DNA from: an uncultured Eubacteriales bacterium
GTDB taxonomy: Bacteria; Bacillota; Clostridia; Oscillospirales; Acutalibacteraceae
Reading direction: 5' to 3'
DNA: 47,597 bases
Assembly (NCBI GenBank): GCA_900316025.1
Contig: ONBJ01000011.1
Span: 1-47,597 of the forward strand
Shown here: one piece after another, positions 7,870 to 41,499 of the stretch
Layout: each line of letters begins with the position of its first letter
How positions within the stretch are numbered: position 1 is the first letter of the stretch
Translations under genes and position numbers: made by a program
The notes under the pieces: generated by a model
Told to the model about the DNA's origin: nothing
Seen by the model: only the letters and a program-made list of their open reading frames with translations
Database searches by the model: none

Positions 7870-8014
7870 AGCCTGCGGAAAAACACAGGCGATTGCAGCC
7901 GTTTTCGGACATTTGTCCGAAAACAAAATTCAGGCATCTGCCTGAATTTTCACTGCGGCATATGCCGCAGCGGGCTGCAATCGCAAGTATGAGCGAAACC
8001 GCAGGCTTTTTTTA
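7870..8014 (+). terminator. Possible terminator enclosing a family 1 element
   Basis: AGCCTGCGG (7870-7878) can pair with CCGCAGGCT (7999-8007), and T7 follows. The whole family 1 copy sits in the loop. It may end the CYTH transcript, and it shows how the element can be nested within other pairing arms. Confidence 0.45.
7889..7984. repeat. Family 1 four-way-junction element, copy 1
   Basis: The outer arm GCGATTGCAGCC pairs with GGCTGCAATCGC (12 bp). Inside are hairpin 1 GTTTTCGGAC/GTCCGAAAAC (loop ATTT), hairpin 2 AAAATTCAGGC/GCCTGAATTTT (loop ATCT) and hairpin 3 CTGCGGC/GCCGCAG (loop ATAT). TGAGCG lies 5 nt after the right arm. Confidence 0.93.
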
Positions 8015-8023
8015 ATCCTGTCA

Positions 8024-8773
8024 TCATTCGGCTTCCTGTATAACGGGAAGTATGCTGCCAACATCAGTCAAAGGCTTATTGCTAAGCTCCAGTGAGTATA
8101 TATTGTAATTTCTCAGAAAGGATTTTATTCTGTCACAATCTCTGTGTAAGCTGAGCTTTCCTGTAAAGGCAAGAATATCTTTACTGATTTTTCCGCAGCA
8201 GCCTCCTATAAATCCGTAGCTGTATCCGTAAAGCCTTACATCTCCCTGTTCAACCATAAGTGCATCAACTCCGTTTTTTATGCAGGCATTGTATATTCCC
8301 GAATCCGCTGTTATGACTGCATTTGCATTTACTACCGCTGTTGAACATTTTGTATATCCTTGTTTTACATCTATAAGCCTGATTTTTTTGCTTATGCAAT
8401 AATTCTTTACCTCCGTACAGGTATATTTCTCTCTGCATATCAGAAAATTACCCATAACAACGTGATTAAGCAATGTATTGTAAGGGTATTCTGTTCCCGT
8501 CTTATCTTTGGTAAACTCCGTCCTGATTTCAAGACTACTTTTTTCTAATTTTACAGAACTGTCAGTACTTAAAAACACCTTTCCCCTTTCGTAATATGAA
8601 CACTGCATATCCGCATGGTATCTTTCATAATATGGCAGATAACTGCACGGAAAAACTTTTACTGCATTAATTCCCAGATTTTCCAGTTCCTTTATTATGT
8701 AGGTATACTCTCCTGATATTATAACGTCGGTTACTCTTTTTTCTGGCAGATTTGGTCTGCAAAATTCTCTCAA
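8024..8773 (-). CDS. DUF6873-like protein, possible GME-fold (amidinotransferase-like)
   Basis: A soluble protein with no signal peptide. The pattern (SGEYTYIIKELENLGI near the start, EYPYNTLLNHVVMGNFLI in the middle, GGCCGKISKDILAFTGKLSLH and the terminal PLTDVGSILPV) resembles the clostridial DUF6873 family, thought to have a guanidino-group-modifying (GME) fold. That assignment is from memory and should be checked. The ATG at 8809 touches the family 1 arm and lacks a ribosome site, so I prefer TTG at 8773 with AAGGGGAG 10 nt upstream (249 residues). It lies downstream of the ABC permease on the same strand, separated by family 1 copy 2. The substrate is unknown. Confidence 0.6.
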   Translation of the reverse strand: MREFCRPNLPEKRVTDVIISGEYTYIIKELENLGINAVKVFPCSYLPYYERYHADMQCSYYERGKVFLSTDSSVKLEKSSLEIRTEFTKDKTGTEYPYNTLLNHVVMGNFLICREKYTCTEVKNYCISKKIRLIDVKQGYTKCSTAVVNANAVITADSGIYNACIKNGVDALMVEQGDVRLYGYSYGFIGGCCGKISKDILAFTGKLSLHRDCDRIKSFLRNYNIYSLELSNKPLTDVGSILPVIQEAE

Positions 8774-8810
8774 ATTTATAATTTCTCCCCTTTCATTTTC
8801 CGTCAGCATA

Positions 8811-8905
8811 TGCGATTGCAGATGTCTGCGGACATTTGTCCGCAGACAATAAAAAGGCTTGCCTTTTTACCATCAAAAGCAAAGCTTTTGATGGCTGCAA
8901 TCGCA
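8811..8905. repeat. Family 1 four-way-junction element, copy 2
   Basis: Outer arm TGCGATTGCAG/CTGCAATCGCA. Hairpin 1 TGTCTGCGGAC/GTCCGCAGACA (loop ATTT), hairpin 2 AAAAAGGC/GCCTTTTT (loop TT), hairpin 3 CCATCAAAAGC/GCTTTTGATGG (loop AAA). TGAGCG at 8909. A further CCGTCA (8800-8805)/TGACGG (8915-8920) pair encloses the element. It lies between the permease stop and the DUF6873-like start. Confidence 0.93.
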
Positions 8906-8924
8906 GCCTGAGCGTTGACGGCAC

Positions 8925-10118
8925 TCAAAGCGAACGCAAAGCATTGGCAGGATTTAATTCAGATGCCTTTACAGCAGGATAAACTCCGAAAACCGCACCT
9001 GAAATCATAGAAATAACGCACGTTGTAAGTACGGTTTTTAAATCTGTACCTACAGAGCTGTTGTTCATCAAAGCACCTCCTGCAAGCACGACAAAGAAAG
9101 CCATAAACGCTCCAATTATACAGCCTGTAAGCGAAAGTATAAGTGCTTCTGAAAGAAACTCACGTACTATGACGGCTCTTCCTGCACCTATAGCTTTTTT
9201 GATACCTATTTCACGCTTTCTCTCTCCTACCGATACCAGCATAACAGTCATTATGCTAAGCCCTGCAACTATGAGCGATACAGCTCCGACAGCCGAAAGT
9301 ATTGACGTAACTATGTTCAATATATCGGTAAGTGATTCCTTTTGTTTTGCCAGATTTGTTATTTTATAGCTTCCCTCACTCTCTGAATTGAGTGCGGAAA
9401 GCTTTTTCTCTATGGTTCTTGACAAAGCAGAAAGTTCCGTGTTTCTGTCGGCTTTTGTTATTATCTGATTATAGTTTGCAAGTCCTGCAATATGCTGTAC
9501 TGTGGTATAAGGAACATATATAAAGTTCGGAACATAGCTTCCCATAGCAGACTGCAAAAGTCCGCTTCCTGTTTTTATTACTCCTGCTATCTTGAAATCC
9601 TGAGTATTGCCCTTGATTGTAAGCGTTATCATATGTCCTACTGCATTATCTTTTCCGAACATATTTCTGGCAAACGTCTGGTCTACAACACATACACAGG
9701 CATTGTTTACTATATCGGCTCTGCTTATATCTCTGCCGTAAACGGTTTTAAGCGATACTATATCCTTTGCGTTGCTGTCTATTCCCCATATAATGGAATT
9801 TTCGCTTTTTCCGAATGATGACAGTGCTTCTGAATTTTCCGCAAAAACGGGCATAGCACTGATTACTCCGTCTATGCTTTTTATAGTATTGAGTTCATCT
9901 CTGCCGAGCGGAATGCTGCTGTTTTTTGCGGCTACCGTAAGTCCTCCAAGACCAAGGCTTTCTATTTCCGTATTTACGGCTGTTGTTCCGAAAACTCCTA
10001 TACTGTTTATTATTATAACAGAACATACACCTATGGCAACACCCAATATTGTTATAAGGCTTCTTCCTTTTTTTCTCATAAGATTTTTAAGGGGATATAT
10101 AAGCATTTGTTCAAGCAT
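8925..10118 (-). CDS. MacB/FtsX-type ABC transporter permease
   Basis: The membrane subunit of a MacAB-like exporter: four transmembrane segments, one at the N-terminus (about 20-45) and three at the C-terminus (about 270-395), around a large extracellular MacB periplasmic-core domain. The signatures RSLITILGVAIGVCSVIIINSIG near the N-terminus and GERKREIGIKKAIGAGR before the third helix are typical. I chose the ATG at 10118 because GGAG is 6 nt before it; the upstream ATG at 10124 is only 2 nt from that site. It overlaps the hlyD-like gene by 8 nt, so translation is probably coupled. The matching ATPase gene is not next to it or anywhere else in the window. Confidence 0.9.
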   Translation of the reverse strand: MLEQMLIYPLKNLMRKKGRSLITILGVAIGVCSVIIINSIGVFGTTAVNTEIESLGLGGLTVAAKNSSIPLGRDELNTIKSIDGVISAMPVFAENSEALSSFGKSENSIIWGIDSNAKDIVSLKTVYGRDISRADIVNNACVCVVDQTFARNMFGKDNAVGHMITLTIKGNTQDFKIAGVIKTGSGLLQSAMGSYVPNFIYVPYTTVQHIAGLANYNQIITKADRNTELSALSRTIEKKLSALNSESEGSYKITNLAKQKESLTDILNIVTSILSAVGAVSLIVAGLSIMTVMLVSVGERKREIGIKKAIGAGRAVIVREFLSEALILSLTGCIIGAFMAFFVVLAGGALMNNSSVGTDLKTVLTTCVISMISGAVFGVYPAVKASELNPANALRSL

Positions 10119-11052
10119 TGTCATTCTCCAGAAGTTTATTTATTTTTACCGCACCTTTCTTGTTTTCCATTTTGTCGGGAAAATTTATTATGAGGTCGTT
10201 TTCCTTTATTCCCGAAAGTATTTCTATACCGTTTTCGTACTCGTTTCCTGTTTTTACAGATTTTCTGACAGCTTTTCCGTCATTGTAGGTATATACTGCT
10301 CCTTTGCTGCCACTTTCCATTTCGACCGCTTCATAGGGAATGATATAGTCATTATTCTTGACCTTTGTCGTTATGGTACATTTTGCGGTATAACCCTGTC
10401 TTATGCTGTCATCAGGGTTATTTATATCGACCGTTACATTTACCGCAGTTTCTTTTCCTGATGTTGTGATAACCTGCTTTGCTACGTTGTCGATTTCCGA
10501 TACAACTCCGTCATACTCCTTATCCCCCAGTGCCGAGCCTGTTATTCTGACTTTCTGACCGTTGGAAATAACCGAAATTTTACTCTCACTTACAGGTATG
10601 CTGACGCATAAATCCTTGCTGTTTACTATTGTTACCGCTGTCTGAGTATTTATGACATCATCGCCCTGCTTTATTCCGATATCGAGTATCTTGCCTGATA
10701 CGGGGGCTGTAATTTTCAGTTCGGATTTATTCACCACATCTGCAAGCATACCGTCAAGCTGACTGTATTCTTCGGGTATATCAGCATACATAGTAAACAG
10801 AACATCGTCTTTTTCTACAATATCCCCCTTAATAAATTTTATGTCCTTTATTCTGCCGACTGACGGCGGTGTTACTTCGCAGGTTTCCTTATACTGAATT
10901 TTTCCGTAGCATACGACCGTATCCTCTACTCTGCTTGCCGTTACCCTGTAGACATCTGCTGCATACACGCTGTTTTTCACCGCCGCTCCACATATTATAA
11001 GCGTAATCACCACCCCTGCGGTTATAACCAGCTCCAGAATGATTTTTTTCAT
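10111..11052 (-). CDS. HlyD/MacA-type membrane fusion (adaptor) protein
   Basis: An N-terminal anchor (about 5-28) is followed by a biotinyl-lipoyl-like domain split around a very short hairpin (TPPSVGRIKDIKFIKGDIVEKDDVLF, then the second half TAPVSGKILDIGIKQGDDV). Beta-barrel and membrane-proximal domains follow (VTVDINNPDDSIRQGYTAKCTI). This is the RND/MacA-type adaptor layout. The coiled-coil hairpin usually found between the lipoyl halves is almost missing, as in many Gram-positive adaptors. It is the first gene of a two-gene unit with the permease. It probably links extracellular substrate or envelope to the exporter; the substrate is unknown. Confidence 0.85.
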   Translation of the reverse strand: MKKIILELVITAGVVITLIICGAAVKNSVYAADVYRVTASRVEDTVVCYGKIQYKETCEVTPPSVGRIKDIKFIKGDIVEKDDVLFTMYADIPEEYSQLDGMLADVVNKSELKITAPVSGKILDIGIKQGDDVINTQTAVTIVNSKDLCVSIPVSESKISVISNGQKVRITGSALGDKEYDGVVSEIDNVAKQVITTSGKETAVNVTVDINNPDDSIRQGYTAKCTITTKVKNNDYIIPYEAVEMESGSKGAVYTYNDGKAVRKSVKTGNEYENGIEILSGIKENDLIINFPDKMENKKGAVKINKLLENDNA

Positions 11053-11130
11053 TAATTATCAGCTCCTCATTTCTTATTATTCAAAAATAAAGTAAGATTA
11101 TTTACATTAAAAATCTTTTTTTCCCTTTGG

Positions 11131-11260
11131 TTTAAGGGTTTCACCCTTAAAAATCCTGACCAAAGGCTCCGCCTTTGGAAACCGCAAGGGCTCTGCCCTT
11201 GACCCGCAAGCCTTTGAAAAGGCTTGACATAAGGGACAGAGGTTTCCGCCTCTGTCCCTT
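11131..11260. repeat. Family 2 multi-hairpin element, copy A (reverse orientation)
   Basis: Five hairpins in a row: TTTAAGGGT/ACCCTTAAA, CCAAAGGC/GCCTTTGG, CAAGGGC/GCCCTTG, CAAGCCTTT/AAAGGCTTG and AAGGGACAGAGG/CCTCTGTCCCTT. The last lies 14 nt after the Cys-rich gene stop and may end the feo transcript, although no U-tract follows. It carries one CAAGGGC hairpin more than copies B and C. Confidence 0.85.
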
Positions 11261-11274
11261 TTGATAAAAATTAT

Positions 11275-11475
11275 TTATTCAGAAATGTTCTGACTGTTTA
11301 CGTTTGCCGAGCAATCCGTGCAGCCGCAGCAGCCGTTACAGCCACCTCCGCAGGAAGAACAGTTTTTTCCGTTTTTCTTATCCTTCACGACTGAAAAAAA
11401 CGCAAGTAAGATAACAGCGAGAACTATAATTCCTACCGATATAGTGCCCATATTGGCAGACAACCATTCAAGCAT
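11275..11475 (-). CDS. FeoB-associated Cys-rich membrane protein
   Basis: A small protein (66 residues) with one N-terminal transmembrane helix (about 8-30) and a Cys/Gly-rich cytoplasmic tail with CSSCGGGCNGCCGCTDC. This fits the FeoB-associated Cys-rich family, which sits downstream of feoB in many Firmicutes and may handle iron delivered by FeoB. I chose ATG at 11475 with GGGAGG 8 nt upstream; a longer reading to 11526 overlaps feoB and lacks a better site. It is the last gene of the feo operon. Confidence 0.85.
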   Translation of the reverse strand: MLEWLSANMGTISVGIIVLAVILLAFFSVVKDKKNGKNCSSCGGGCNGCCGCTDCSANVNSQNISE

Positions 11476-11518
11476 AATAAAAACCTCCCTGAAGCTTAAA
11501 ATTTCTGTTTCAGACAAT

Positions 11519-14020: not shown

Positions 14021-14139
14021 ACTTTTCTTCCTTTCATTTCATTATTGTTATATTAAACTAACCTTTATGGTAAATCATATTGAGAAAACCCGAGCGGCTT
14101 TCTCAATGATATGATTTCTGATTATTTTATTCAATCTCC

Positions 14140-14361: not shown

Positions 14362-14376
14362 TTTTATTTCCCCCTG

Positions 14377-14589: not shown

Positions 14590-14619
14590 AAGAAATCCCC
14601 CTTTGTCAAGCCTTCTTTT

Positions 14620-14638: not shown

Positions 14639-14647
14639 CTGTATATA

Positions 14648-14821: not shown

Positions 14822-14841
14822 AAAGTCAGGATATACAAATT

Positions 14842-14936
14842 ACCCAAATCTTAAAGTTTGGGTCAAGCCTTTTCAAAGGCTTGCGGTTTCTAAAGGCAGA
14901 GCCTTTGGTGGGATTTTCAAGGGCAAAGCCCTTGAA
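14842..14936. repeat. Family 2 multi-hairpin element, copy B
   Basis: ACCCAAA/TTTGGGT, CAAGCCTTT/AAAGGCTTG, CTAAAGGC/GCCTTTGG (one mismatch) and TTCAAGGGC/GCCCTTGAA in order. It sits in the predicted 5' UTR of the LRR/BIG2 gene. Confidence 0.88.
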
Positions 14937-15026
14937 CAAAAAATATTGTAGGATAACGCAAATGCTTCGGCGAATTTGCGTTGGCATATATATCAAACTT
15001 TTATTTATCACTAAGGAGGTTTCTCA

Positions 15027-17783
15027 ATGAAATTTTCAAAAAAATTAATATCATTGACTTTAGCCGCATTTATGGTACAGAGCGTATTTGCTGCGGGCAT
15101 TTCATCAGCTTCCTCATACAATACCGAAGTATTCCAGAGCAGTGCTGTAAGTCACAAAGAAGCGGTCGGTGACACCGAACTTCTGTCATTCGGCGATTTT
15201 ATGTACAAGGTCGAAAATAACGCAATAACCATAGTAAGCTACGGCGGAAGCGGTGCTGATACCCTTAATATCCCATCAAATATCAACGGTCTGCCTGTAA
15301 AAGTCTTAGGTGACGGCGTGTTCGCAAACTGTACCTCCCTTACTTCAATTACTATTCCTGAGGGAATACAGACCATCAGCAACGGTGCATTCTTCCAGTG
15401 CCGTTTCGCAAGCATTACAATTCCGACTACCGTTACAAAAATAGGCGACTTCGCTTTCCAGCGTTGTAACAATCTTACTACAATAAAAATTCCGGGCAGG
15501 GTAACAAGTCTTGGCAAATACGCATTTTCAATGTGTACCGCTCTTAAATCCGTAACATTATCAGGTAAAATTACTACTATCCGTGAAAAAACCTTTGCTG
15601 ACACTGCTCTTACTTCCGTCAACATACCCTCAAATGTTACCACTATAGAGGACAGTGCGTTTGAAAATTGTGCAAACCTTAAAAAAGTAACAATCCCCAC
15701 TTCCGTTACAACAATACGTTCTGCCGCTTTCAAAACCGATACAGCTATAACAGATGTCTATTTCCTCGGTACAAAGGCTCAGTGGAGCAAAATATCCATC
15801 GGAAGCTATAATGACGCAATAACCGACAGCAACGTACTCCACTACGGCAGCCAGTCAGTATCTCTCAGTGCGTCAAGAGCTACTCTTTACGTAGGTCAGA
15901 CAAAGACACTTACTGCTACAATCACACCCGAAAATCCCGATGAATCATTCTACTGGAAGAGCGATAATACTACTGTTGCAGCCGTAAACTCAGCAGGAAA
16001 GATTACCGCAAAAGCTGAGGGTACAGCTACAATTACGGTTTCAACCTCTCTCGGAAATACCGCTACCTGCATAGTTTCCGTAAGAAAAGCTCCCGAAAGT
16101 ATTGCACTTAACAAAACGTCCGCAACAATAAGCGTAGGCGAAACTCTTGCTCTTTCCTACACTCTCACACCCTCAGACGCATACACGGTATGCTCATGGA
16201 GCAGCAGTGATTCAACAGTCGCTTCCGTTACATCAGGCGGAAGTGTTACGGCTAAAAAAGTAGGCAAGGCTACTATAACCGTAAAGACATCAAACGCAAA
16301 GACAGCCACATGTACCGTTACCGTAAAGAAAGCTGCTACTGCTGTAACTCTTGACAAAACTTCGGCTTCAATGGGTGAAGGACAAAGCTGTCAGCTTACC
16401 GCAACAGTAACACCTTCAGATGCTCTGACAAAGCTTACATGGAGCAGCAGCAACGAAAATGTTGCCACTGTAAGCGGTTCGGGAAAAGTATCAGGTAAGA
16501 GTGCAGGTACAGCCACAATCAAGGTTACAACTTCCAACGGTAAGACGGCTTCCTGTTCGGTAACAGTTAAAAAAGGCCCTAAAAGCATATCACTGAACAA
16601 AACCTCTGAAACACTCGGAGTTGGTCAGACACTTACTCTCGTTGCTGCACTCAACCCTTCAAACTCTGTGACATACTGCAACTGGAAAAGTACGGATACT
16701 ACAATAGCTACCGTAAGCTCGGCAGGAAAGGTTACAGCTAAAAAGCCCGGTGACGCTATAATAACTGTGAAAACCTCCAACGGCAGAGTAGCTGTATGTG
16801 AAATAACAGTAAAAAAAGCACCTACAAGCATAGCGCTCAACAAAACATCTGTAAAGAACTGCGTTGGTCAGTCATTTACTCTGAAATGTACTCCTACTCC
16901 CAGCAGTGCTTACAAGGTATGTACATGGAGCAGCAGCAACAGTACCGTCGCTTCGGTAGACAGCAACGGAAAAGTTACATCTAAAAAAGAGGGTACTGCA
17001 AAGATAACTGCTAAAACCTACAACGGTCTGACAGCAACCTGTAATGTAACGGTTCAGAAAGAACCCACAGCAATAACTCTTAACAAAACTTCACTTACAA
17101 TGGCTGTAGGTCAGTCATATAAGCTTGTAAAGACACTTACTCCCTCAGATTCGGTTACGGGATATACATGGCAGAGCCACAACCTCTTTGTCGCAACCGT
17201 TGACAGTACAGGAAAAATAAAGGCTGAAAATATGGGTACATCTGTAATAACAGTTACTACATCAAACGGAAAATCGGCTGCTTGTACTGTAACGGTAAAA
17301 AAAGCTCCCACAACTGTTGAACTCAACAAAACAGAGGCAACTCTCGGTGTTGGTCAGACGCTTACTCTTACAACCACGCTTACACCTTCAGACGCTTTCA
17401 CATACTATAGCTGGAGCAGCAGCAACAGTACTGTAGCTACAGTTGAAAAAGGTAAGGTTACTGCTAAAAAGGTTGGTACGGCTACTATAACCGCAAAGAC
17501 CTCCAACGGCAAAACAGCAACCTGTACTATAACCGTAAAGCCTGCACCCACTGCAGTTTCGCTTGACAAGACCACGCTCGACCTCAAGGTAGGTCAGTAT
17601 TACAAACTTACAACTACCCTCACCCCCTCGGACGCATACACTTACTACAGTTGGAGCAGCAGCGACAGCACTGTAGCAACTGTTGAAAAAGGTAAGGTCA
17701 CTGCTAAAAAAGTCGGTACGGCTGTTATAACTGTAAAGACCTCCAACGGCAAAACCAAAACCTGCACTGTAACAGTTAAATAA
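15027..17783 (+). CDS. Secreted LRR_5 (BspA-like) and BIG2-repeat surface protein
   Basis: A signal peptide (about 1-26, KKLISLTLAAFMVQSVFAAG) is followed by a BspA-type LRR_5 region (about 60-260; repeats such as LTSITIPEGIQTISNGAFFQC and LKKVTIPTSVTTIRSAAF). Eight bacterial Ig-like group 2 (BIG2) domains of about 80 residues follow (about 275-918), each with LNKT...VGQ...TLTPSDA...WSSSNSTVATV...GKVTAKKVGTATIT. The last two domains are the most alike. No LPXTG, dockerin or SLH motif is seen at the C-terminus, so the attachment mode is unclear. The protein probably acts in adhesion or glycan binding outside the cell. ATG with AAGGAGG upstream. Monocistronic. Confidence 0.9.
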   Translation: MKFSKKLISLTLAAFMVQSVFAAGISSASSYNTEVFQSSAVSHKEAVGDTELLSFGDFMYKVENNAITIVSYGGSGADTLNIPSNINGLPVKVLGDGVFANCTSLTSITIPEGIQTISNGAFFQCRFASITIPTTVTKIGDFAFQRCNNLTTIKIPGRVTSLGKYAFSMCTALKSVTLSGKITTIREKTFADTALTSVNIPSNVTTIEDSAFENCANLKKVTIPTSVTTIRSAAFKTDTAITDVYFLGTKAQWSKISIGSYNDAITDSNVLHYGSQSVSLSASRATLYVGQTKTLTATITPENPDESFYWKSDNTTVAAVNSAGKITAKAEGTATITVSTSLGNTATCIVSVRKAPESIALNKTSATISVGETLALSYTLTPSDAYTVCSWSSSDSTVASVTSGGSVTAKKVGKATITVKTSNAKTATCTVTVKKAATAVTLDKTSASMGEGQSCQLTATVTPSDALTKLTWSSSNENVATVSGSGKVSGKSAGTATIKVTTSNGKTASCSVTVKKGPKSISLNKTSETLGVGQTLTLVAALNPSNSVTYCNWKSTDTTIATVSSAGKVTAKKPGDAIITVKTSNGRVAVCEITVKKAPTSIALNKTSVKNCVGQSFTLKCTPTPSSAYKVCTWSSSNSTVASVDSNGKVTSKKEGTAKITAKTYNGLTATCNVTVQKEPTAITLNKTSLTMAVGQSYKLVKTLTPSDSVTGYTWQSHNLFVATVDSTGKIKAENMGTSVITVTTSNGKSAACTVTVKKAPTTVELNKTEATLGVGQTLTLTTTLTPSDAFTYYSWSSSNSTVATVEKGKVTAKKVGTATITAKTSNGKTATCTITVKPAPTAVSLDKTTLDLKVGQYYKLTTTLTPSDAYTYYSWSSSDSTVATVEKGKVTAKKVGTAVITVKTSNGKTKTCTVTVK

Positions 17784-19051: not shown

Positions 19052-19116
19052 CGTTAGGTATCGGCAAATCCGGCTTGAGAGCGGTTATGAAAACACAGCT
19101 TTCATCTTATTTTTGG

Positions 19117-19213
19117 TGCGATTGCAGCCCACAGCGGCATTTGCCGCTGTGAAATTCAGGCGGTATCGCCTGAATTTGGTCAAAAGCAAAGCTTTTGACC
19201 GGCTGCAATCGCC
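19117..19213. repeat. Family 1 four-way-junction element, copy 3
   Basis: Outer arm GCGATTGCAGCC/GGCTGCAATCGC. Hairpin 1 CACAGCGGC/GCCGCTGTG (loop ATTT), hairpin 2 AAATTCAGGCG/CGCCTGAATTT (loop GTAT), hairpin 3 GGTCAAAAGC/GCTTTTGACC (loop AAA). TGAGTG at 19217. It lies in the predicted ruvC 5' UTR. Confidence 0.93.
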
Positions 19214-19271
19214 GCCTGAGTGTAGCCGCAGACCGATATTCTGAATTATACTGTTTTTTGCGGAGGCTGTA

Positions 19272-19778
19272 ATGGTTGTACTGGGAATAGACCCCGGTTA
19301 TGCGATAGTAGGCTGGGGTGTGGTTTATTTTTCGGGAAATATGTATAAGCCATTGGGATTTGGTGCGGTTACAACAGAACCCGAAATGAAATTCACCAAA
19401 AGGCTGGAGTACATACATTCGGGTATGAGCAGACTTATGCTTAAATGCAAACCCGATGCTGTTGCCATAGAAAAGCTGTATTTTCAGAATAATCAGAAAA
19501 CAGCCATAGACGTTGCACAGGCAAGAGGAGTTATACTTCTTGCCGCAGAGCAGAGAGGAATACCTGTATTTGAGTATACGCCGCTTCAGATAAAGACGGT
19601 GGTTACAGGTTACGGAAAGGCTAAGAAGCCGCAGGTAATGGAAATGACAAGACGGCTTCTTAAACTTGAAAAAGTTCCGAAACCTGATGATACGGCAGAT
19701 GCTCTGGCGGTTGCATTGTGTCATATTCAGGCAAACGGTTCTGGAATAAGACGTATTTTATCACAGGGGAGATACTGA
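19272..19778 (+). CDS. ruvC: Holliday junction endonuclease RuvC
   Basis: The resolvase that cuts four-way DNA junctions symmetrically in homologous recombination. The RNase H-like fold shows the acidic residues D7 (GIDPG), E67 (VAIEKLYF) and the C-terminal DDTADALAVALCH pair. The 168-residue length is normal. ATG has GCGGAGG 6 nt upstream. It is the first gene of ruvC-ruvA-ruvB, with ruvA starting 4 nt after its stop. Confidence 0.96.
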   Translation: MVVLGIDPGYAIVGWGVVYFSGNMYKPLGFGAVTTEPEMKFTKRLEYIHSGMSRLMLKCKPDAVAIEKLYFQNNQKTAIDVAQARGVILLAAEQRGIPVFEYTPLQIKTVVTGYGKAKKPQVMEMTRRLLKLEKVPKPDDTADALAVALCHIQANGSGIRRILSQGRY

Positions 19779-21445: not shown

Positions 21446-21515
21446 GATGATTATAATTTTATGAACCAGCAATAAACTTACTTAGTAAATAATTAACGAA
21501 TTGGAGGATTTAAGA

Positions 21516-22874
21516 ATGGGAAGACTTTTTGGAACAGACGGTGCAAGAGGAGTAGCAAACACGGAACTTACATGTGAGCTTGCTATGAATATAGGAAGAG
21601 CGGCTGCTATGGTTCTTACGGAACAAAGCGATAAAAAGCCCGTTGTCATCATAGGAAAAGATACACGCTTAAGCTCGGATATGCTGGAGGGAGCTATAAT
21701 CGCAGGACTTTGTTCTGTAGGAGCAGATGTAATAACCCTAGGAGTAGTACCTACTCCTGCGGTAGCTCTTCTTGTAAAAAAATACAGTGCTGATGCAGGA
21801 ATTATGATTTCGGCTTCTCACAATCCGTATGAATTTAACGGAATTAAAATATTCAGTTCAACAGGCTTCAAACTTCCTGATATACTGGAAAATGAAATAG
21901 AAGAAATCGTTCTCGACAATGCAAAGCTTTACAATATAGTTTGTGAGGATAAACTTGGAAAGGTAACTGTTTCTGAAACAGGTCTTAATGACTATATAAA
22001 TCATGTTATAGGAACAGTACCCGAAAAACCTCAGGGACTTAAAGTCGCATTTGACTGTTCAAACGGTTCGGCATCACGCACGGCTGAGGCTATTTTCAGC
22101 GGCTTGGGTGTGGAATGCCATATGATGAATTCAAATCCTGACGGCGTGAACATAAATAAAAACTGCGGCTCAACACATATCGAAGCTCTTGCCGAGTATG
22201 TAAAGGAAAATAAACTCGACTGCGGTATAGCATTTGACGGTGATGCTGACAGATGTCTTGCTGTGGACGAAAACGGCGAGCTTATAGACGGTGACTTTAT
22301 AATAGCAATGTGTGCCCTCGATTTGAAAGAAAGAGGTATGCTTAAAAACAATACCGCTGTAGGAACAATTCTTACAAATATGGGATTTAACAAATTCTGC
22401 GAGAAAAATCAGATTGATTTTGAAGCCACAAAAGTAGGTGACAGATATGTCCTTGAATCTATGGTAAAGAACGGCTACTCAATAGGCGGAGAGCAGAGCG
22501 GTCACGTTATATTCCTTGATTACTGTACTACAGGTGACGGTCAGACAACTGCCGCACAGATTTTAAGCCTTATTAAAAGAAAAAATGTTAAGCTTTCAGA
22601 AGCTGCAAAAGTAATGCAGAGATATCCGCAGGTTATGGTCAACGTTAAAATCTCTCCCGAAGGAAAGAAAAAGTTGGACTGTGACAGCGATATTCAGGCT
22701 AAAATTTCAGAGGTTAAAAATCAGCTTGATGGTCACGGAAGAATTATTGTAAGAGAGTCCGGAACAGAACCTCTTGTAAGAGTAATGCTTGAGGGTACTG
22801 ATTACGATGAAATCAAAAAGCTTGCAGATGAAACAGCCAAGGTTGTAGAAAATAAACTGGGAGCAAAGTCTTGA
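21516..22874 (+). CDS. glmM: Phosphoglucosamine mutase
   Basis: Converts glucosamine-6-phosphate to glucosamine-1-phosphate for UDP-GlcNAc and peptidoglycan synthesis. I start at ATG 21516 (MGRLFGTDGARG), 7 nt after GGAGG, rather than at the in-frame codon 15 nt upstream. The phosphoserine loop is ISASHNP with S101. The metal-binding loop is DGDADR and the substrate loop is GGEQSGH. The C-terminal phosphate-binding RESGTEPLVRVM is complete. 452 residues, normal. Family 1 copy 4 follows the gene. Confidence 0.96.
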   Translation: MGRLFGTDGARGVANTELTCELAMNIGRAAAMVLTEQSDKKPVVIIGKDTRLSSDMLEGAIIAGLCSVGADVITLGVVPTPAVALLVKKYSADAGIMISASHNPYEFNGIKIFSSTGFKLPDILENEIEEIVLDNAKLYNIVCEDKLGKVTVSETGLNDYINHVIGTVPEKPQGLKVAFDCSNGSASRTAEAIFSGLGVECHMMNSNPDGVNINKNCGSTHIEALAEYVKENKLDCGIAFDGDADRCLAVDENGELIDGDFIIAMCALDLKERGMLKNNTAVGTILTNMGFNKFCEKNQIDFEATKVGDRYVLESMVKNGYSIGGEQSGHVIFLDYCTTGDGQTTAAQILSLIKRKNVKLSEAAKVMQRYPQVMVNVKISPEGKKKLDCDSDIQAKISEVKNQLDGHGRIIVRESGTEPLVRVMLEGTDYDEIKKLADETAKVVENKLGAKS

Positions 22875-22919: not shown

Positions 22920-23016
22920 TGCGATTGCAGTCGACAAAAGACTTGTCTTTTGTCGCTTAAGTGGCACAGCCGCTTAAGCCCCTTACGGACTTGTCCGTAA
23001 GGGGACTGCAATCGCA
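22920..23016. repeat. Family 1 four-way-junction element, copy 4
   Basis: Outer arm TGCGATTGCAGT/ACTGCAATCGCA. Hairpin 1 CGACAAAAGAC/GTCTTTTGTCG (loop TT), hairpin 2 CTTAAGTGGC/GCCGCTTAAG (one G-U, loop ACA), hairpin 3 CCCCTTACGGAC/GTCCGTAAGGGG (loop TT). No TGAGYG flank. Between glmM and the methyltransferase gene. Confidence 0.93.
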
Positions 23017-23087: not shown

Positions 23088-23948
23088 TTGCGTTCAGCTA
23101 ATTGGAAAGACTATGAACTTATAGATACATCAGAGGGAGAAAGACTGGAGCGTTGGGGAAATATTATTCTTATAAGACCCGACCCTCAGATAATATGGAA
23201 TACTCCTGAAAAAAATCCTTTGTGGAAAAAGGCACACGCACGTTATCACCGTTCTTCATCAGGCGGCGGAAAATGGGAGCAGTACAGAAAAATACCTGAT
23301 GTATGGCAGATAAGCTACAGGAATATTGTATTCAGGATAAAACCTATGGGCTTCAAGCATACGGGAGTATTTCCCGAACAGGCGGCAAACTGGGATTTTG
23401 TTGACGGAGTTATAAAAAAATCCCATAAGCAGCTTAACGTACTTAACCTTTTTGCGTATACGGGTGGAGCTACTCTTGCATGTCTTAATGCAGGAGCTAA
23501 AGTATGCCACGTAGACGCTTCAAAAGGTATGGTGCAGTGGGCAAAGGAAAATGCGGACGTATCAGGATTATCCGACAGACCCGTAAGGTGGATTGTTGAT
23601 GACTGCATAAAATTTGTACAGCGTGAAAAACGCCGTGGTAACAAATACGACGGAATTATTATGGATCCTCCGTCATACGGAAGAGGTCCCGGAGGCGAAG
23701 TGTGGAAGCTTGAAGAACAGCTTTATTCTCTGGTTCAGCTTTGCTCAGAGGTTTTATCTGATGACGCACGGTTTTTTATACTTAATTCATATACAACGGG
23801 ATTATCGCCGGCAGTAATGGAATATTTGCTGGGTACTGTTCTTATTCCGAAATTCGGCGGAAACGTAACCTCCGATGAAATCGGACTGAGGGTTACTGAC
23901 ACAGGACTTGTGCTTCCGTGCGGCTCGACTGCGTTGTGGACAAGGTAA
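23088..23948 (+). CDS. Class I SAM-dependent methyltransferase, RlmI/RlmK-related
   Basis: A Rossmann-fold methyltransferase with motif I NLFAYTGGATLACLNAGAKVCHVD (about 120-143) and the catalytic/adenine loop MDPPSYGRGPGGEVWKLEE (about 195-213). It resembles COG1092-type rRNA methyltransferases (RlmI/RlmK C-terminal half) but has no PUA domain, so the target is probably RNA but not certain. TTG start with GGAGG 9 nt upstream. 286 residues. It ends 8 nt before ecfA1, so it may be co-transcribed with the transporter genes. Confidence 0.78.
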   Translation: MRSANWKDYELIDTSEGERLERWGNIILIRPDPQIIWNTPEKNPLWKKAHARYHRSSSGGGKWEQYRKIPDVWQISYRNIVFRIKPMGFKHTGVFPEQAANWDFVDGVIKKSHKQLNVLNLFAYTGGATLACLNAGAKVCHVDASKGMVQWAKENADVSGLSDRPVRWIVDDCIKFVQREKRRGNKYDGIIMDPPSYGRGPGGEVWKLEEQLYSLVQLCSEVLSDDARFFILNSYTTGLSPAVMEYLLGTVLIPKFGGNVTSDEIGLRVTDTGLVLPCGSTALWTR

Positions 23949-24814: not shown

Positions 24815-24913
24815 TGCGATTGCAGACGACAAAAGCGTTACGCTTTTGTCAGATTTCAGGCTTGAGCCTGAAATCCCGTTTCGGACAAATGTCCGAAACG
24901 GTCTGCAATCGCA
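24815..24913. repeat. Family 1 four-way-junction element, copy 5
   Basis: Outer arm TGCGATTGCAGAC/GTCTGCAATCGCA (13 bp). Hairpin 1 GACAAAAGCG/CGCTTTTGTC (loop TTA), hairpin 2 ATTTCAGGC/GCCTGAAAT (loop TTGA), hairpin 3 CGTTTCGGAC/GTCCGAAACG (loop AAAT). TGAGTG at 24920. It lies inside the ecfA1-ecfA2 intergenic gap. Confidence 0.93.
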
Positions 24914-30310: not shown

Positions 30311-30405
30311 GCGATTGCAGACGGTTTCGGACTAACGTCCGAAACCGAAATTCAGGCAAAGCCTGAATTTCCGCATCGGCGTATGCCGATGCGGTCTGCA
30401 ATCGC
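30311..30405. repeat. Family 1 four-way-junction element, copy 6
   Basis: Outer arm GCGATTGCAGAC/GTCTGCAATCGC. Hairpin 1 GGTTTCGGAC/GTCCGAAACC (loop TAAC), hairpin 2 AAATTCAGGC/GCCTGAATTT (loop AAA), hairpin 3 CCGCATCGGC/GCCGATGCGG (loop GTAT). TGAGCG at 30410. A further ATGCGG/CCGCAT pair (30296-30301/30419-30424) encloses it. Confidence 0.93.
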
Positions 30406-34674: not shown

Positions 34675-34704
34675 ACATATATATAAAGGAGAACTGTATA
34701 TTAT

Positions 34705-35391: not shown

Positions 35392-35393
35392 TC

Positions 35394-35891
35394 TTGAACG
35401 GAAGAACAGAAAGCGAAAAAGGAAGCATAACTCTTTTAGGCAAAAAAAATACCGTATACGGAAACAGCTATTCTCCTGAACTGCTTGAAGCATTTCCGAA
35501 TAAGCATACGGAAAACGATTATTTTGTAAAGTTCAACTGTCCCGAATTTACAAGCCTCTGCCCTATCACGGGACAGCCTGATTTCGCAACAATATATATA
35601 TCATACATTCCCGATAAGCTTATGGTTGAAAGCAAATCCTTGAAGCTGTATCTTTTCAGCTTCCGAAATCACGGAGATTTCCACGAGGACTGCATAAACA
35701 TAATTATGAAAGACCTCATAAAGCTTATGAACCCTAAATATATCGAAGTATGGGGAAAGTTCCTGCCCAGAGGCGGATTATCCATCGACCCCTACTGCAA
35801 TTACGGCAAACCTGATTCAAAGTGGGAAAATCTCGCCTGGGAAAGACTTGCACATCACGATATGAACCCCGAAACAGTGAATAACCGATAA
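35394..35891 (+). CDS. queF: NADPH-dependent preQ0 reductase QueF
   Basis: Reduces the nitrile of preQ0 to the aminomethyl of preQ1, the base inserted into tRNA. The active-site Cys is in [16 protein letters not shown] (about 62), and the tunnel-fold motif is [22 protein letters not shown]. The short 165-residue type I form is typical of Firmicutes. TTG start with AAGGAG upstream. Last gene of the operon. queA and tgt are not in the window. Confidence 0.95.
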
Positions 35892-35944
35892 AAACCTGTT
35901 TAATATTCTTTTTTGCATCAGAATACTGTAGTGTTCAAATTTTT

Positions 35945-35993
35945 AGTAAAATATTTTTGTATTTTACTTGACTAAAGGGTAAAAGTGTTTTAC
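35945..35993 (+). promoter_or_regulatory. Two GTAAAA/TTTTAC palindromes at the potABCD promoter
   Basis: AGTAAAA (35945-35951) with TTTTACT (35962-35968), 10-nt spacer, touches the -35 box. GTAAAA-GTG-TTTTAC (35979-35993) overlaps the -10 box. The shared half-site suggests one dimeric repressor, but no potR-type regulator gene is adjacent. Confidence 0.4.
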
Positions 35994-35996
35994 AAT
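35968..35996 (+). promoter_or_regulatory. Promoter of potABCD
   Basis: TTGACT, 17-nt spacer, TACAAT. Confidence 0.65.
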
Positions 35997-36089
35997 GAAA
36001 TCTGTTTTATAATGTATATTGACAAATGAATACCGTCTTTTTTGTTGATGATTAAGGCAATTTGTCTATATTTTACGGAGGTGCATAAA

Positions 36090-37520: not shown

Positions 37521-38311
37521 AATCAAAAGCTCCTGCAATACCTTATCTTATATGGATGCTGTTTTTTACTGTTGTACCTCTTGTTATGGTCGTGTACTAC
37601 GCATTCACCGACAAAAGCGGTGCATTTACGCTTAATTCATTCGTGGACAGCCTTTTTTATACCGATGTCTTTATACGCTCGCTGTGGATTGCACTCATAT
37701 CTACAGTTATCTGCCTTGTCATAGCATATCCTTTAAGCTACATAATGTCACGCTCCAGCGGAAGAGCAAGAACGGCAATAACTATGATGATTATGCTCCC
37801 TATGTGGATGAACTTCATACTCAGAATATACGCATGGGTTCTGCTGCTGCAAAATGACGGTCTTGTTGATACAGCCGTAAAAATATTCGGTCTTGATATT
37901 CCGCTTATGGGAAACGCTGGCTCAGTTGTACTCGGTATGGTATATAACTATCTTCCTTTTATGGTGCTTCCTCTGCACGCCGTTATGCTTAAAATAGATG
38001 ACAGCCTGATTGAAGCCGCAAAAGATTTAGGTGCAGGTAAATTCAACGTATTCAGAAAGGTTGTCTTTCCTCTCAGTGTATCCGGAATTATAAGCGGCTT
38101 TACTATGGTTTTTGTTCCCACCGCAAGTACATTCCTTGTAGCTCAGTATTTAGGCGGTACGGGCGACAAAATGATTGGTGACGTTATAGAAAATATCTTC
38201 CAGAGAGATAAAAACGTCGGTTCTGCTATTTCGCTTGCCCTTATGGTTATTATTCTTATCCTTGTGGTAATTATGAACAAGTTCGGTGACGAGGAGGCGG
38301 CTGTAGCTTGA
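37517..38311 (+). CDS. potB: Spermidine/putrescine ABC transporter permease PotB
   Basis: One of two inner-membrane permeases of the polyamine importer, about six transmembrane helices. The EAA-type coupling motif [23 protein letters not shown] (about 172-194) docks onto PotA. GTG start within the potA stop overlap, so translation is coupled. 264 residues. Confidence 0.93.
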
Positions 38312-39114
38312 AAAAAAAGAGAAAAATCGCTTCGGGAATTTATATTGCACTGGTTATGCTTTTCCTCTACCTCCCTATTGCCGTTCTTATTCTCTATTCT
38401 TTCAACAACGGCAAAACCTCCGTATGGAAGGGCTTTACCTTAAAATGGTACTATGAACTTTTCAACAACAGTGCCATTATGACCTCACTTTACAATACCG
38501 TTATTGTTGCTGTAATAGCTTCGATAGTTTCCACTGTTCTGGGAACTTTAGCCGCTGTCGGCATTTATAATATGAAAAAAACTGTCCGTACAGTAGTTAC
38601 CAACGTTTCAAACGTTCCTATTATAAATCCCGAAATAGTTACAGGTGTATCATTTATGCTTCTGTTTACATTTCTTGGTAATATTTTCAACTTTGAAATG
38701 GGCTTCTGGACAGTCCTTATCGCTCATATAAGCTTCTGTACACCGTATGTGGTTCTGAATGTTATGCCTAAGCTCAGACAGATGGACTACAGTATATATG
38801 AAGCCGCTCTCGACCTCGGCTGCAATCAGCGGCAGGCTTTTATGAAAACTGTTGTGCCTGAAATTATGCCCGGAGTTGTTTCAGGTCTGCTTATGTCTTT
38901 CACATACTCTCTTGATGACTTCGTAATTACATATTTTACCAGAGGTGCAAGATTTCAGACACTTCCCATTCAGATTTACACTATGCTGAGAAGAAGAATT
39001 TCGCCTACTATAAACGCATTGTCTACCCTGCTTTTTGTTGTTACGATAACTATACTCATAATCGTTAATGTCCGTGAGTACAGAGCCGAAAAAGCAAGGG
39101 CTGCAAACTCATAA
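38308..39114 (+). CDS. potC: Spermidine/putrescine ABC transporter permease PotC
   Basis: The second permease. It begins with a basic [32 protein letters not shown] helix and carries the EAA motif YEAALDLGCNQRQAFMKTVVPEIMPG (about 172-197) with TYSLDDFVITYF after it. TTG start overlapping the potB stop by 4 nt. 268 residues. It is followed by family 2 copy C before potD. Confidence 0.93.
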   Translation: MKKKRKIASGIYIALVMLFLYLPIAVLILYSFNNGKTSVWKGFTLKWYYELFNNSAIMTSLYNTVIVAVIASIVSTVLGTLAAVGIYNMKKTVRTVVTNVSNVPIINPEIVTGVSFMLLFTFLGNIFNFEMGFWTVLIAHISFCTPYVVLNVMPKLRQMDYSIYEAALDLGCNQRQAFMKTVVPEIMPGVVSGLLMSFTYSLDDFVITYFTRGARFQTLPIQIYTMLRRRISPTINALSTLLFVVTITILIIVNVREYRAEKARAANS

Positions 39115-39126
39115 ATATAATTAATT

Positions 39127-39222
39127 CCTAAAAACATAAAGTTTAGGTCAAGCCTTTTTAAAGGCTTGCGGTTTCCAAAGGCGGAGCCTTTGGTCAGGAT
39201 TTTTAAGGGTGAAACCCTTAAA
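39127..39222. repeat. Family 2 multi-hairpin element, copy C
   Basis: CCTAAA/TTTAGG, CAAGCCTTT/AAAGGCTTG, CCAAAGGC/GCCTTTGG (loop GGA) and TTTAAGGGT/ACCCTTAAA (loop GAA). It fills the potC-potD gap and ends just before the potD ribosome site AAGGAG, so it could tune potD expression relative to potABC. Confidence 0.9.
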
Positions 39223-39242
39223 CAGAAAAGGAGATATGAAAA

Positions 39243-40334
39243 TTGAAAAAAATACTAAGCTTGATTATGTCTGCACTTGTTATAAGCTCGGCAGCCTTTA
39301 TGGTTACAGGCTGTAATTCGGAAAACGGCGGCGGAAACGGCAACAACACGGAAAAACAGGAAATAAACGTTTTCAACTGGGGCGAATATATTTCAAACGG
39401 TGAGGACGGTACTCTCGATACCATAAAATCATTTGAGGAAAAATATAACGTCAAGGTCAACTATACAAACTATGAATCCAACGAGGAAATGTATAACCTC
39501 ATAAAAGAAAGTAATTCCTCCTACGATGTTATAATTCCCTCTGACTATATGGTCGCAAAGCTAATTGAAGAAGATATGCTTGAAAAAATTGATTTCAGCA
39601 ATATTCCCAACTATGACAACGTTATGGAAAAATATAAAAAGAACGATTTCGACCCCAACGGTGAATATTCCGTTCCTTACTCCTGGGGTGTGGTCGCTCT
39701 TGCTTACAACAAAACTATGGTTAAAGAAAAACCCGACAGCTTCAGCGTTCTTTGGGACAAGCAGTACAGCGGAAATATCCTTATGTTCGATAATTCGAGA
39801 GATGCTATGGCTATAGCTATGCGTCTTAAAGGCATAACTCCCACAAAAATTACAAAGGACGATATAGATATAGCTTCGGCTTATCTTAAAGAACAAAGAC
39901 CTCTGCTCAAAAAGTACGTTATGGATCAAGTGTTCACAGAGATGGAGGGAAATCAGTCTGCACTCGCTCCCTACTATGCCGGCGATATAGCTACTATGAT
40001 GGAGAATAACGAAGACCTTGACTACGTTCTCCCCAAAGAAGGCTCAAACCTCTTTATAGACTCTATGTGTATTCCAAAAACAACGAAAAACAAGGCTCTT
40101 GCTGAAAAGTTCATAAATTATATGCTCGAACCCGAAGTTGCCAAGGCTAACGCTGAATACCTCGGATATTCCACTCCCAATCAGGCTGCTTATGACCTGC
40201 TTGATGACGATATTAAAAACAATAAGCTTATCTATCCCGATGAGGCTTATCTTAAAAAATGCTATACTTTCTCAAATCTTCCTACAGATGTTTATAACTA
40301 TATGCAGGACGAATTTCTGAAAGCCAAGGTATAA
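39243..40334 (+). CDS. potD: Spermidine/putrescine-binding lipoprotein PotD
   Basis: The extracellular substrate-binding protein of the polyamine importer. The lipoprotein signal ends at VTGC (about Cys24). INVFNWGEYISNGEDGTLDTIKSFEEKYNVKVNYTNYESNEEM is the PotD/PotF signature, and YDVIIPSDYMVAKLIEE and NRSA-like SVPYSWGVVALAYNK follow. TTG start with AAAGGAG upstream. 363 residues. It closes the operon; a strong terminator follows. Confidence 0.95.
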   Translation: MKKILSLIMSALVISSAAFMVTGCNSENGGGNGNNTEKQEINVFNWGEYISNGEDGTLDTIKSFEEKYNVKVNYTNYESNEEMYNLIKESNSSYDVIIPSDYMVAKLIEEDMLEKIDFSNIPNYDNVMEKYKKNDFDPNGEYSVPYSWGVVALAYNKTMVKEKPDSFSVLWDKQYSGNILMFDNSRDAMAIAMRLKGITPTKITKDDIDIASAYLKEQRPLLKKYVMDQVFTEMEGNQSALAPYYAGDIATMMENNEDLDYVLPKEGSNLFIDSMCIPKTTKNKALAEKFINYMLEPEVAKANAEYLGYSTPNQAAYDLLDDDIKNNKLIYPDEAYLKKCYTFSNLPTDVYNYMQDEFLKAKV

Positions 40335-40344
40335 TGAAATATTA

Positions 40345-40396
40345 AACCCACAGTCAGATCCATTTTTGTTTGAATCTGACGGTGGGTTATTTTTTT
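40345..40396 (+). terminator. Intrinsic terminator of potABCD
   Basis: AACCCACAGTCAGAT and ATCTGACGGTGGGTT form a long stem, followed by ATTTTTTT. It lies between the convergent potD and gpr genes, whose stop is at 40399. Confidence 0.9.
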
Positions 40397-40398
40397 GT

Positions 40399-41268
40399 TC
40401 AGCCTGCAATTTCAGCAAGCTCTGTTAAACTGTAGCCCTCGTGCAGAGCCATATTGACAGCCATTCCGATAAATTTTGAGCTTTTTTCTATTAAAGTATC
40501 TATTTCCCTAGGTGTGACAAACATATCTTTCTTTCCTGTAAAATCCTTAATATCCGTTTTTTTATCCCCTATAATATCGTATACAAGAGTATACGCATTT
40601 ACTACTGTCGGCACTCCTATAGCTATAACAGGTATTCCCAGAAATTTTTCCTTAATCTCAATACGCCTGTTCCCTATTCCTGCACCCGGAGATATTCCCG
40701 TATCTGAAATTTGCAGAGTATTTCCCAGTCTTTCCGTTCGTCTTGATGCAAGTGCATCTATCACTATGACGGCGGACGGCTTTATTTTTTGTACCGTACT
40801 TAAAATAAGCTCGCCTGCTTCTATTCCCGTCTGCCCAAGAACTCCCGGAGCTATTACTGCTACGCTTCTTAATCCATTAAAACCTGAAATATCCGATATT
40901 TCACTTTTTATGTGCCTCGTAGCAATTATATATCTTGTACTCTGAGGGCCGAGTGCGTCAGGTGTTATTCTGTAATTTCCAAGCCCTGCTACAAGTACCG
41001 TTCCATTCTCAGGCAGAAGCTCCCTGATATACCTGCCTATAATTTTTATCTTGCAGCCGTTATCCGAAAATATATCAGGTATAGATAAAAACTCTGCCGT
41101 AATGTATGTTCCCTTATCTTTTCCGAAAATTTCGGCAGCCTTTTCCGTTATTATGTTTATTCTGGTAATGTGCATTCCGTCACAGGACTTTTCTGTAACT
41201 TCTGTTCCGTCCATACTGTTACCTGCAAATTCCTGTACTTCCAGTGCCAAATCCGTATTTATATTCAT
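40399..41268 (-). CDS. gpr: Germination protease Gpr
   Basis: An aspartic-type endoprotease that degrades small acid-soluble DNA-binding proteins when spores germinate. It begins NINTDLALEVQEF, matching the pro-region and start of GPR, and shows VLVAGLGNYRITPDALGP, PGVLGQTGIEAGE, VIVIDALASRR and TDTGISPGAGIGNRR. 289 residues, the shorter clostridial size. GGGAGTGA lies before ATG. It suggests that the organism or its recent ancestor sporulates. A sigma-F/G-like promoter is at 41294..41322. Confidence 0.92.
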   Translation of the reverse strand: MNINTDLALEVQEFAGNSMDGTEVTEKSCDGMHITRINIITEKAAEIFGKDKGTYITAEFLSIPDIFSDNGCKIKIIGRYIRELLPENGTVLVAGLGNYRITPDALGPQSTRYIIATRHIKSEISDISGFNGLRSVAVIAPGVLGQTGIEAGELILSTVQKIKPSAVIVIDALASRRTERLGNTLQISDTGISPGAGIGNRRIEIKEKFLGIPVIAIGVPTVVNAYTLVYDIIGDKKTDIKDFTGKKDMFVTPREIDTLIEKSSKFIGMAVNMALHEGYSLTELAEIAG

Positions 41269-41293
41269 ACCGAAATCACTCCCTTATTATCAG

Positions 41294-41322
41294 ATTCTTT
41301 CCCGTTCGTATTTTAATAATAC
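41294..41322 (-). promoter_or_regulatory. Candidate sigma-F/sigma-G promoter of gpr
   Basis: GTATT (41322..41318), 15-nt spacer, GGAAAGAAT (41302..41294). The latter fits the forespore -10 pattern GGNNANANT. Confidence 0.4.
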
Positions 41323-41402
41323 AAAAATTTAATGTCTGACAAAAAATAAAAGCGTTATACTTAAACAACGCTTTTACAAAATTATTAAAAACAGCAGTTA
41401 TT

Positions 41403-41499
41403 TGCGATTGCAGCCGTAAAAAGCTTTCGCTTTTTACAACTTCAAGGCAAAGCCTTGAAGTTCACGGACGGCTTATGCCGTCCGTGGGCTGCAATCGCA
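41403..41499. repeat. Family 1 four-way-junction element, copy 7
   Basis: Outer arm TGCGATTGCAGCC/GGCTGCAATCGCA (13 bp). Hairpin 1 GTAAAAAGC/GCTTTTTAC (loop TTTC), hairpin 2 AACTTCAAGGC/GCCTTGAAGTT (loop AAA), hairpin 3 CACGGACGGC/GCCGTCCGTG (loop TTAT). No TGAGYG flank. It lies 14 nt after the RND exporter stop. Confidence 0.93.

Follow-up and report, generated by a model that had tools for sequence, protein, structure and literature searches.

A dispersed intergenic repeat predicted to fold as a three-hairpin DNA four-way junction in two sister species of Acutalibacteraceae

Are short sequences scattered between the genes of an uncultured Eubacteriales bacterium (family Acutalibacteraceae) conserved for the shape into which they fold? 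The question is raised by a stretch of 47,597 nucleotides (contig ONBJ01000011.1 of assembly GCA_900316025.1), here termed the window, in which a preliminary description had reported seven copies of an element shaped as a four-way junction with three hairpins. Our analysis supports the proposal made there, that these copies represent an undescribed, structure-conserved four-way-junction family. The exact arms GCGATTGCAG and CTGCAATCGC occurred seven times each in the window, every time within the seven copies, whose cores were 93-97 bp long with arms exact over 10 bases. When folded as DNA, all seven gave a closing stem and three hairpins (z scores -11.4 to -13.5), and for none of them did any of 200 shuffled sequences fold as well. 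Both the presence of the seven copies and their shape were thus confirmed. They are listed here with their counterparts, where noted, in RUG213, a sister species (genome G202) whose DNA was ~86% identical to that of the source assembly (G000; 2.08 Mb in 98 contigs) over 52 kb of aligned fetched stretches.

Copy 1: 7889-7984, no strand assigned; outer stem 7889-7900/7973-7984, hairpins 7901-7924, 7925-7950 and 7953-7970; between convergent open reading frames (ORFs).
Copy 2: 8812-8904, plus strand; hairpins in the order GC-rich, middle, A-rich; flanks CCGTCAGC (left) and GCGTTGACGG (right), which can pair with one another.
Copy 3: 19118-19212, plus strand; zero unpaired junction bases; RUG213 orthologue L175:5237.
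Copy 4: 22921-23015, minus strand; one T-G pair in the middle hairpin on the plus strand, equivalent to A-C on the other strand; RUG213 orthologue L175:1333.
Copy 5: 24816-24912, minus strand; RUG213 orthologue with paired changes in all three hairpins (A-rich, middle and GC-rich).
Copy 6: 30311-30405, no strand assigned; RUG213 orthologue with paired changes; right flank ATTGTGAGCGAAGCCGCA.
Copy 7: 41404-41498, minus strand; the matching place in RUG213 (locus L026) holds a copy, but was aligned from one side only and so falls outside the 53 anchored copies considered below.

The family was far larger than the window. A pattern consisting of the two arms separated by 50 to 80 bases was found 129 times in the source assembly and 131 times in RUG213, largely in line with the hundreds of hits that the preliminary description had named as support for a new family, whereas the same pattern read backwards gave no matches in either. 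A covariance model built from six copies (R1) gave 140 strand-hits in the source assembly and 141 in RUG213, with 142 candidates scored in each. For analysis of architecture we used 178 copies picked by arm sequence alone, allowing up to one mismatch per arm (81 from the source assembly, where one of 82 copies was excluded because it lacked flanks, and 97 from RUG213). Every one of the 178 had exactly three branches. By a stricter count, 147 of them had three perfect hairpins, with 33 internal non-Watson-Crick pairs in ~5,326, so that the claim of fully kept pairing needs correcting for rare mismatches. Perfect stems were mostly of 9-11 bp (443/534) with loops of 3-4 nt (467/534), and the hairpins were arranged in the order GC-rich, middle and A-rich, or the reverse. 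Among the loci listed for the two species, 99 copies had exact arms, and all 99 had three branches; 91 had three hairpins free of internal mismatches and 51 had no unpaired junction base. This set counts one place twice, as L053:2097 and L053:2107, and includes two contig ends, L035 and L044, that carry the same repeat. The scan for arms had yielded at least 62 loci, 17 of which were dropped as chance matches because they came from unrelated organisms; when these were folded afterwards, 15 did not reach three branches, and the other two did so with weak interiors.

The same architecture emerged when the arms were ignored. Using strict limits, a scan for structure alone detected 77 three-hairpin junctions in 392 kb of the source assembly, 100 in 711 kb of RUG213 and 12 in 197 kb of G092, a genome from another genus of the same taxonomic family, but none in 200 kb each of G024 and G151; the densities in the first two are not genome averages, because the stretches were mostly chosen around known copies. 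Junctions with two or four hairpins were absent from all seven sets scanned, and shuffled DNA contained no junctions of any kind. The excess of three-hairpin forms persisted under looser limits, where junctions with two, three and four hairpins numbered 5, 81 and 1 in the source assembly, 5, 105 and 1 in RUG213, 14, 22 and 1 in G092, and 3, 0 and 0 in G024. Individual departures from the standard form were seen. At L135:5171-5217 (contig C65 of the source assembly) the same arms enclosed only one hairpin, of the A-rich type, in a continuous perfect stem, and a junction with variant arms, at 5263, was ~45 bases away; at L172:15552-15669 in RUG213 the middle hairpin of a junction was about twice the usual length (22 bp).

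Weakly conserved flanks of ~25 nt on each side seem to be part of the element. Flanks belonging to the same copy paired slightly better than mismatched flanks (median 16 vs 13 pairs, p = 0.02), an excess too weak to lean on. Solo basal hairpins were considered and rejected: GAGCGAAGCCGCAGG (up to two mismatches) occurred 19 times in 392 kb of the source assembly, always within 25 nt after a copy. A signal of the DNA-uptake type was likewise rejected, the exact 10-mer being almost confined to copies in the fetched stretches (149/153 in the source assembly, 165/171 in RUG213), and several of the exact 10-mers outside recognized copies belonged to variant copies.

The preliminary description suggested that structure rather than sequence is conserved, and took significant covariation in all four stems as a sign of a new family. 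In 72 oriented copies from the source assembly, 99.2% of pairs 1-8 of the three hairpins were Watson-Crick, compared with 50.0% when partners were shuffled and at most 40.2% when the partner was slid by one base. All four Watson-Crick pairs were seen at 19 of the 24 hairpin pair positions, while G·U accounted for 0.23% of the pairs. Thus, the letters vary but base pairing is kept, and each copy is therefore predicted to fold into the same four-armed junction. The outer arm, by contrast, was nearly invariant in these copies and changed, while still pairing, only in minor variants recovered by the structure-only scan (GCGATTTCAG/CTGAAATCGC, GGCGGTTGCAG and GCGGCTGCATAC). Structure over sequence, and strong covariation, therefore hold for the three hairpins, but in the fourth stem the sequence is conserved as well. 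Among 267 tetraloops, 12 were GNRA or UNCG and 18 were CTTG, as read along the element rather than along an mRNA.

Comparison of the two species showed that copies are retained in place. Of the 82 copies in fetched stretches of the source assembly, 53 could be anchored on both flanks in fetched RUG213 sequence, and at 51 of these RUG213 had a copy at the same place. Median identity was 0.90 in the cores and 0.75 in 40-base flanks, the core being higher in 43 of the 51 (p = 4e-8); with the arms removed, core identity was 0.875 and still exceeded that of the flanks in 41. The 153 pairs of orthologous hairpins comprised 32 that were identical, 57 of unequal length and 64 of equal length but differing sequence. 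Stem positions had changed on both sides in 34 cases and on one side in 13, the latter at apical or mismatched positions; since one-sided changes are impossible where both species are Watson-Crick, the two-sided excess is a statement on how rarely pairing breaks. In one recent pair (L080:5667 and L052:114), with flanks identical over 45 bases, the middle loop was exactly inverted and the GC-rich loop was changed. Inversion of whole elements was rejected, just 2 of 51 orthologues fitting better when inverted (identity 0.61 and 0.78).

Beyond RUG213, R1 gave no matches at E ≤ 0.001 in 28 other relatives, four of them from the same genus, so that the search of relatives suggested earlier found a sister species rich in copies but no match in those four genomes of the genus. 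The repeat was limited to few species, i.e., two of six genomes of the source genus and one of eight of the genus of G092. Negative results from the large model searches are weak, because only 10-28 candidates were scored per genome; those from the smaller searches, with 142-150 candidates, are stronger. There were two single sightings: one copy in G110 by R1 (none by a second model, R2) and one junction in G030 by the structure scan (none by R2). A match in G371 was rejected as a family member since it folds into tandem hairpins, not a junction. An origin from phage or plasmid was also rejected: of three matches in viral contigs, two (L204 and L205) lack the fold of the element, and L203 reads as a piece of host chromosome. 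Despite its viral listing, L203 (IMGVR_UViG_3300032007_004071) has three copies whose hairpins are the same as those in contig C24 of the source assembly (locus L084). The one copy searched against plasmids had no match.

In G092 R1 gave three matches at E ≤ 1e-4. The exact arms of the window's family were absent from this genome, whose repeats had the same three-hairpin layout with other arms, such as GCGAAAGCCC/GGGCTTTCGC and GGCGGTTTT/AAAACCGCC. R2 produced 140 strand-hits in G092 and none in seven other genomes of its genus; the G092 matches arise partly by construction, because R2 was built partly from G092 copies, but the evidence from the structure-only scan and from R1 is independent of this. 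On first folding, 21 of 23 places in G092 had three hairpins, the exceptions being L210:9648 and L211:11325, the latter cut short; in a more lenient test that left the ends free, three branches were reached by all 23 at one trimming or another. With L218:9500 omitted, the remaining 22 copies comprised 18 in tandem spacers, two convergent, one divergent and one overlapping an ORF, and G·U made up 5 of their 831 pairs.

The gene context of the copies was derived from simple gene calls made for this analysis. In the window, six of the seven copies were intergenic by these calls, and the seventh, at 22921, lay between ORFs 21501-22874 and 23088-23948. The statement that no copy carries an ORF holds by these calls only, as two mechanical ORFs, 19107-19724 (minus strand) and 41475-41804 (plus strand), overlap two copies. 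Of the 178 arm-defined copies, 137 were in tandem, 24 in convergent and 11 in divergent spacers, with two overlapping an ORF and four at a contig edge. Among spacers of at least 120 bases, copies were held by 11/68 divergent, 135/326 tandem and 24/44 convergent ones (p = 2e-5), so divergent spacers were depleted (odds ratio 0.26, p = 2e-5). For the 137 tandem copies, median distances were 40 nt from the preceding stop codon and 82 nt to the following start. Orientation relative to transcription was unbiased (68 sense, 57 antisense; p = 0.37). A downstream T-run (U-tract), a feature of intrinsic terminators, followed 36% of the tandem copies, compared with 33% of 4652 control 35-mers. Ordinary terminators elsewhere in the same tandem spacer were found in 6/135 spacers with a copy vs 30/191 without (p = 0.001), a comparison that is not length-matched; for convergent spacers the figures were 6/24 vs 8/20 (p = 0.34).

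Ten neighbouring proteins in the window were scanned against Pfam. Two had no match, and those with matches included phosphoglucomutase, two ABC transporter ATPases, CDP-alcohol phosphatidyltransferase, a Clp-type AAA protein and germination protease. ARAGORN called no tRNA or tmRNA genes in the window. Three other features of the window were observed:

11099-11232, 14838-14943, 39121-39254 and 45647-45827: a second intergenic repeat, of tandem hairpins, with common motifs CAAGGG..CCCTTG, ACCAAAGGCTCCGCCTTTGGAAACCGCAAG and CAAGCCTTT..AAAGGCTTG; longer pairs 83-93% alike.
3299-3557, minus strand: T-box leader (RF00230, 99.8 bits), directly upstream of minus-strand ORF 2014-3294.
15027-17783, plus strand: ORF of 918 amino acids with tandem repeats 240-243 nt apart, seven copies in register.

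Does the repeat belong to a known system? In Rfam (release 15) nothing in the window exceeded the gathering score except the T-box, consistent with the earlier remark that no named family with this layout was known; the only match at E ≤ 1 in a stretch with two copies, RF02902, scored 20.8 bits, short of its cut-off of 39.8. Literature searches, as far as titles and abstract openings show, listed no account of a repeat like this one. Dispersed palindromes are known in bacteria, but those of which we are aware are single hairpins with conserved letters. The closest parallels are REPINs, bacterial MITEs and hairpins maintained by template switching. The REPINs formed from repetitive extragenic palindromic (REP) sequences are high-copy and extragenic, with two conserved inverted ends, a variable interior with compensatory changes and a predicted single-stranded DNA fold (PMC3116915), and they persist for long periods (PMC8049555). 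Our repeat resembles them in its inverted ends, variable but compensating interior, extragenic location and high copy number. A REPIN, however, is described as a single long hairpin associated with RAYT tyrosine transposases (PMC3116915, PMC2817692), whereas here three hairpins stand on a closing stem. REPs are marked by a GTAG or CGTC tag, and those with CGTC lack a dedicated transposase (PMC3733652), thus providing a precedent in print for palindromes of that kind. Within 25 nt of the arms of the 178 copies, GTAG occurred 5 times on the left and 3 on the right (15.7 and 13.0 in shuffled flanks), and CGTC 22 times on each side (13.3 and 17.5), the left being slightly above chance. With neither tag, and no Y1 transposase in the two species, the repeat is not a REP or REPIN by membership.

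The bacterial miniature inverted-repeat transposable elements (MITEs) RUP, NEMIS/Correia and RPE have terminal inverted repeats or long stem-loops, RUP being linked to IS630 (PMC2229807). Like them the repeat is ~100 bp long with inverted ends (arms of 10-12 bp plus a weak basal stem serving as terminal inverted repeats), and RUP has ~100 intergenic copies; unlike them it is predicted to form a four-way junction, a shape that the excerpted text of PMC2229807 does not describe, the words "cruciform" and "cloverleaf" being absent from it. No parent element with the same ends was found here, in searches for transposases that were limited to Y1 and the IS110 C-terminal domain. Template switching has been described as a mutation process for RNA hairpins that yields compensatory changes and loop inversions (PMC8794818). 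One-step paired changes, perfect stems and an occasional loop inversion are shared with hairpins maintained in that way, but that process does not predict a constant number of three hairpins, bounded by a conserved arm, at more than 100 places.

The analysis shows the copy number, the single architecture, covariation nearly free of G·U and positions common to the sister species, as well as cores conserved above their flanks, a location downstream of stop codons and, in another genus, a further family built in the same way with other arms. The repeat was likely once mobile and recognized by its folded shape; its mobility, an enzyme and a present function are what we infer from these observations. 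The reading that we favour, though tentatively, is a DNA repeat similar to REPINs and MITEs, spread as a single-stranded four-way junction recognized by shape by a putative enzyme, and now held at gene 3' ends. Transposition would have dispersed the copies before the two species diverged, in their common ancestor, the single DNA strand, in its predicted junction form, being what the enzyme would recognize. Hairpin-templated correction (template switching) as DNA is synthesized may be part of what keeps the hairpins perfect, and the copies would now be retained as structural boundaries. Rare G·U on both strands, few RNA-type tetraloops, free orientation and the small number of species argue for spread at the level of DNA, as in REPINs, while lasting positions, intact folds and better-conserved cores argue for retention by a function, for which gene 3' ends are the simplest place. 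Template switching can account for paired changes that arise without intermediates (PMC8794818), but does not explain why the arms are conserved or why the hairpins number three.

Several findings weigh against this reading. There were no matches to the Y1 transposase (PF01797) in the source assembly or RUG213, the two of six same-genus genomes with matches both lacking the repeat, and the IS110 C-terminal domain (PF02371) was absent from all eight genomes examined, the source assembly and RUG213 among them; these two families were the only transposases covered. No recent copies were seen, the alignment score per base to the nearest paralogue among the 72 oriented copies having a median of 0.81 and a maximum of 0.95. 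Where RUG213 lacks a copy at two of the anchored places, the sequence resembles a deletion in one case and a replacement in the other, and two copies found only in RUG213 are not clean inserts; none of these four one-sided places is a clean empty site, and no target duplication was seen. The counts of pair changes omit 57 of the 153 orthologous hairpins, which are of unequal length, and 13 one-sided changes do occur, at apical or mismatched positions. Inverted loops, which are a mark of template switching, were found in 8 of 66 differing loops, vs a mean of 8.9 of 99 with shuffled partners, and were therefore rejected as proof of cruciform processing. G·U pairs, rare on both strands, were in weak excess on the sense strand (33 vs 15, in ~5,660 pairs each), which could come from an RNA role or from strand-biased mutation. 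Finally, a hairpin CAAAAGC..GCTTTTG was present in 46 of 81 copies in the source assembly and 12 of 23 places in G092 (L210-L218) but was absent from the 716 kb searched in G024, G151 and 20 further genomes of the taxonomic family. What links the two repeat families may thus be common descent or transfer and not shape alone; descent, transfer or a common recognition motif could each explain the sharing.

The sense-strand excess of G·U would fit a structured RNA, transcribed in 3' untranslated or intercistronic regions, whose four-way junction protects or ends the upstream transcript, and either orientation would work because the fold is nearly symmetric. The spacing of tandem copies from stop and start codons, the depletion of divergent spacers and the fewer ordinary terminators in copy-bearing tandem spacers point the same way. 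We nevertheless consider this rather unlikely: even on the sense strand G·U was ~0.6% of pairs, GNRA and UNCG tetraloops were scarce, T-runs were not enriched downstream and no Rfam relative exceeded threshold. It is improbable that the repeat is a functionless remnant of an old burst, its hairpins perfect only through template-switch correction at replication forks. Although the predominance of two-sided changes and the compensatory changes and loop inversions ascribed to template switching (PMC8794818) agree with such an origin, cores were better conserved than flanks even without their arms, only two of 53 anchored places had been lost and all three hairpins were kept in all 178 copies; moreover, correction of single hairpins leaves the absence of two-hairpin junctions from the strict scan unexplained. 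A recombination site of the integron type (attC-like), i.e., a structure-recognized single-strand site beside genes, would share the conserved outer inverted ends, variable interior and place 3' of genes, but is very improbable, given that orientation to the adjacent gene is not fixed, that positions are conserved between species and that copies in the window adjoin genes for, among others, phosphoglucomutase, ABC transporters and germination protease.

Returning to the DNA repeat recognized by shape, each of two genera has its own family, with different arms, largely different stems and exactly three hairpins, which may point to an enzyme system that recognizes a DNA four-way junction. That the junction itself is what is conserved in both, copied or kept by such an undescribed system, is a conjecture that we advance with considerable reserve. 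Here a shape is kept, down to three hairpins on a closing stem, while the letters turn over, in two genera and with different arms. The repeat thereby offers hundreds of predicted four-way junctions as a natural library in which compensatory histories can be read, it allows one to test whether selection or template switching gives rise to the covariation of such repeats, and it points to an enzyme that reads structure, or to a function at 3' ends, so far without a name.

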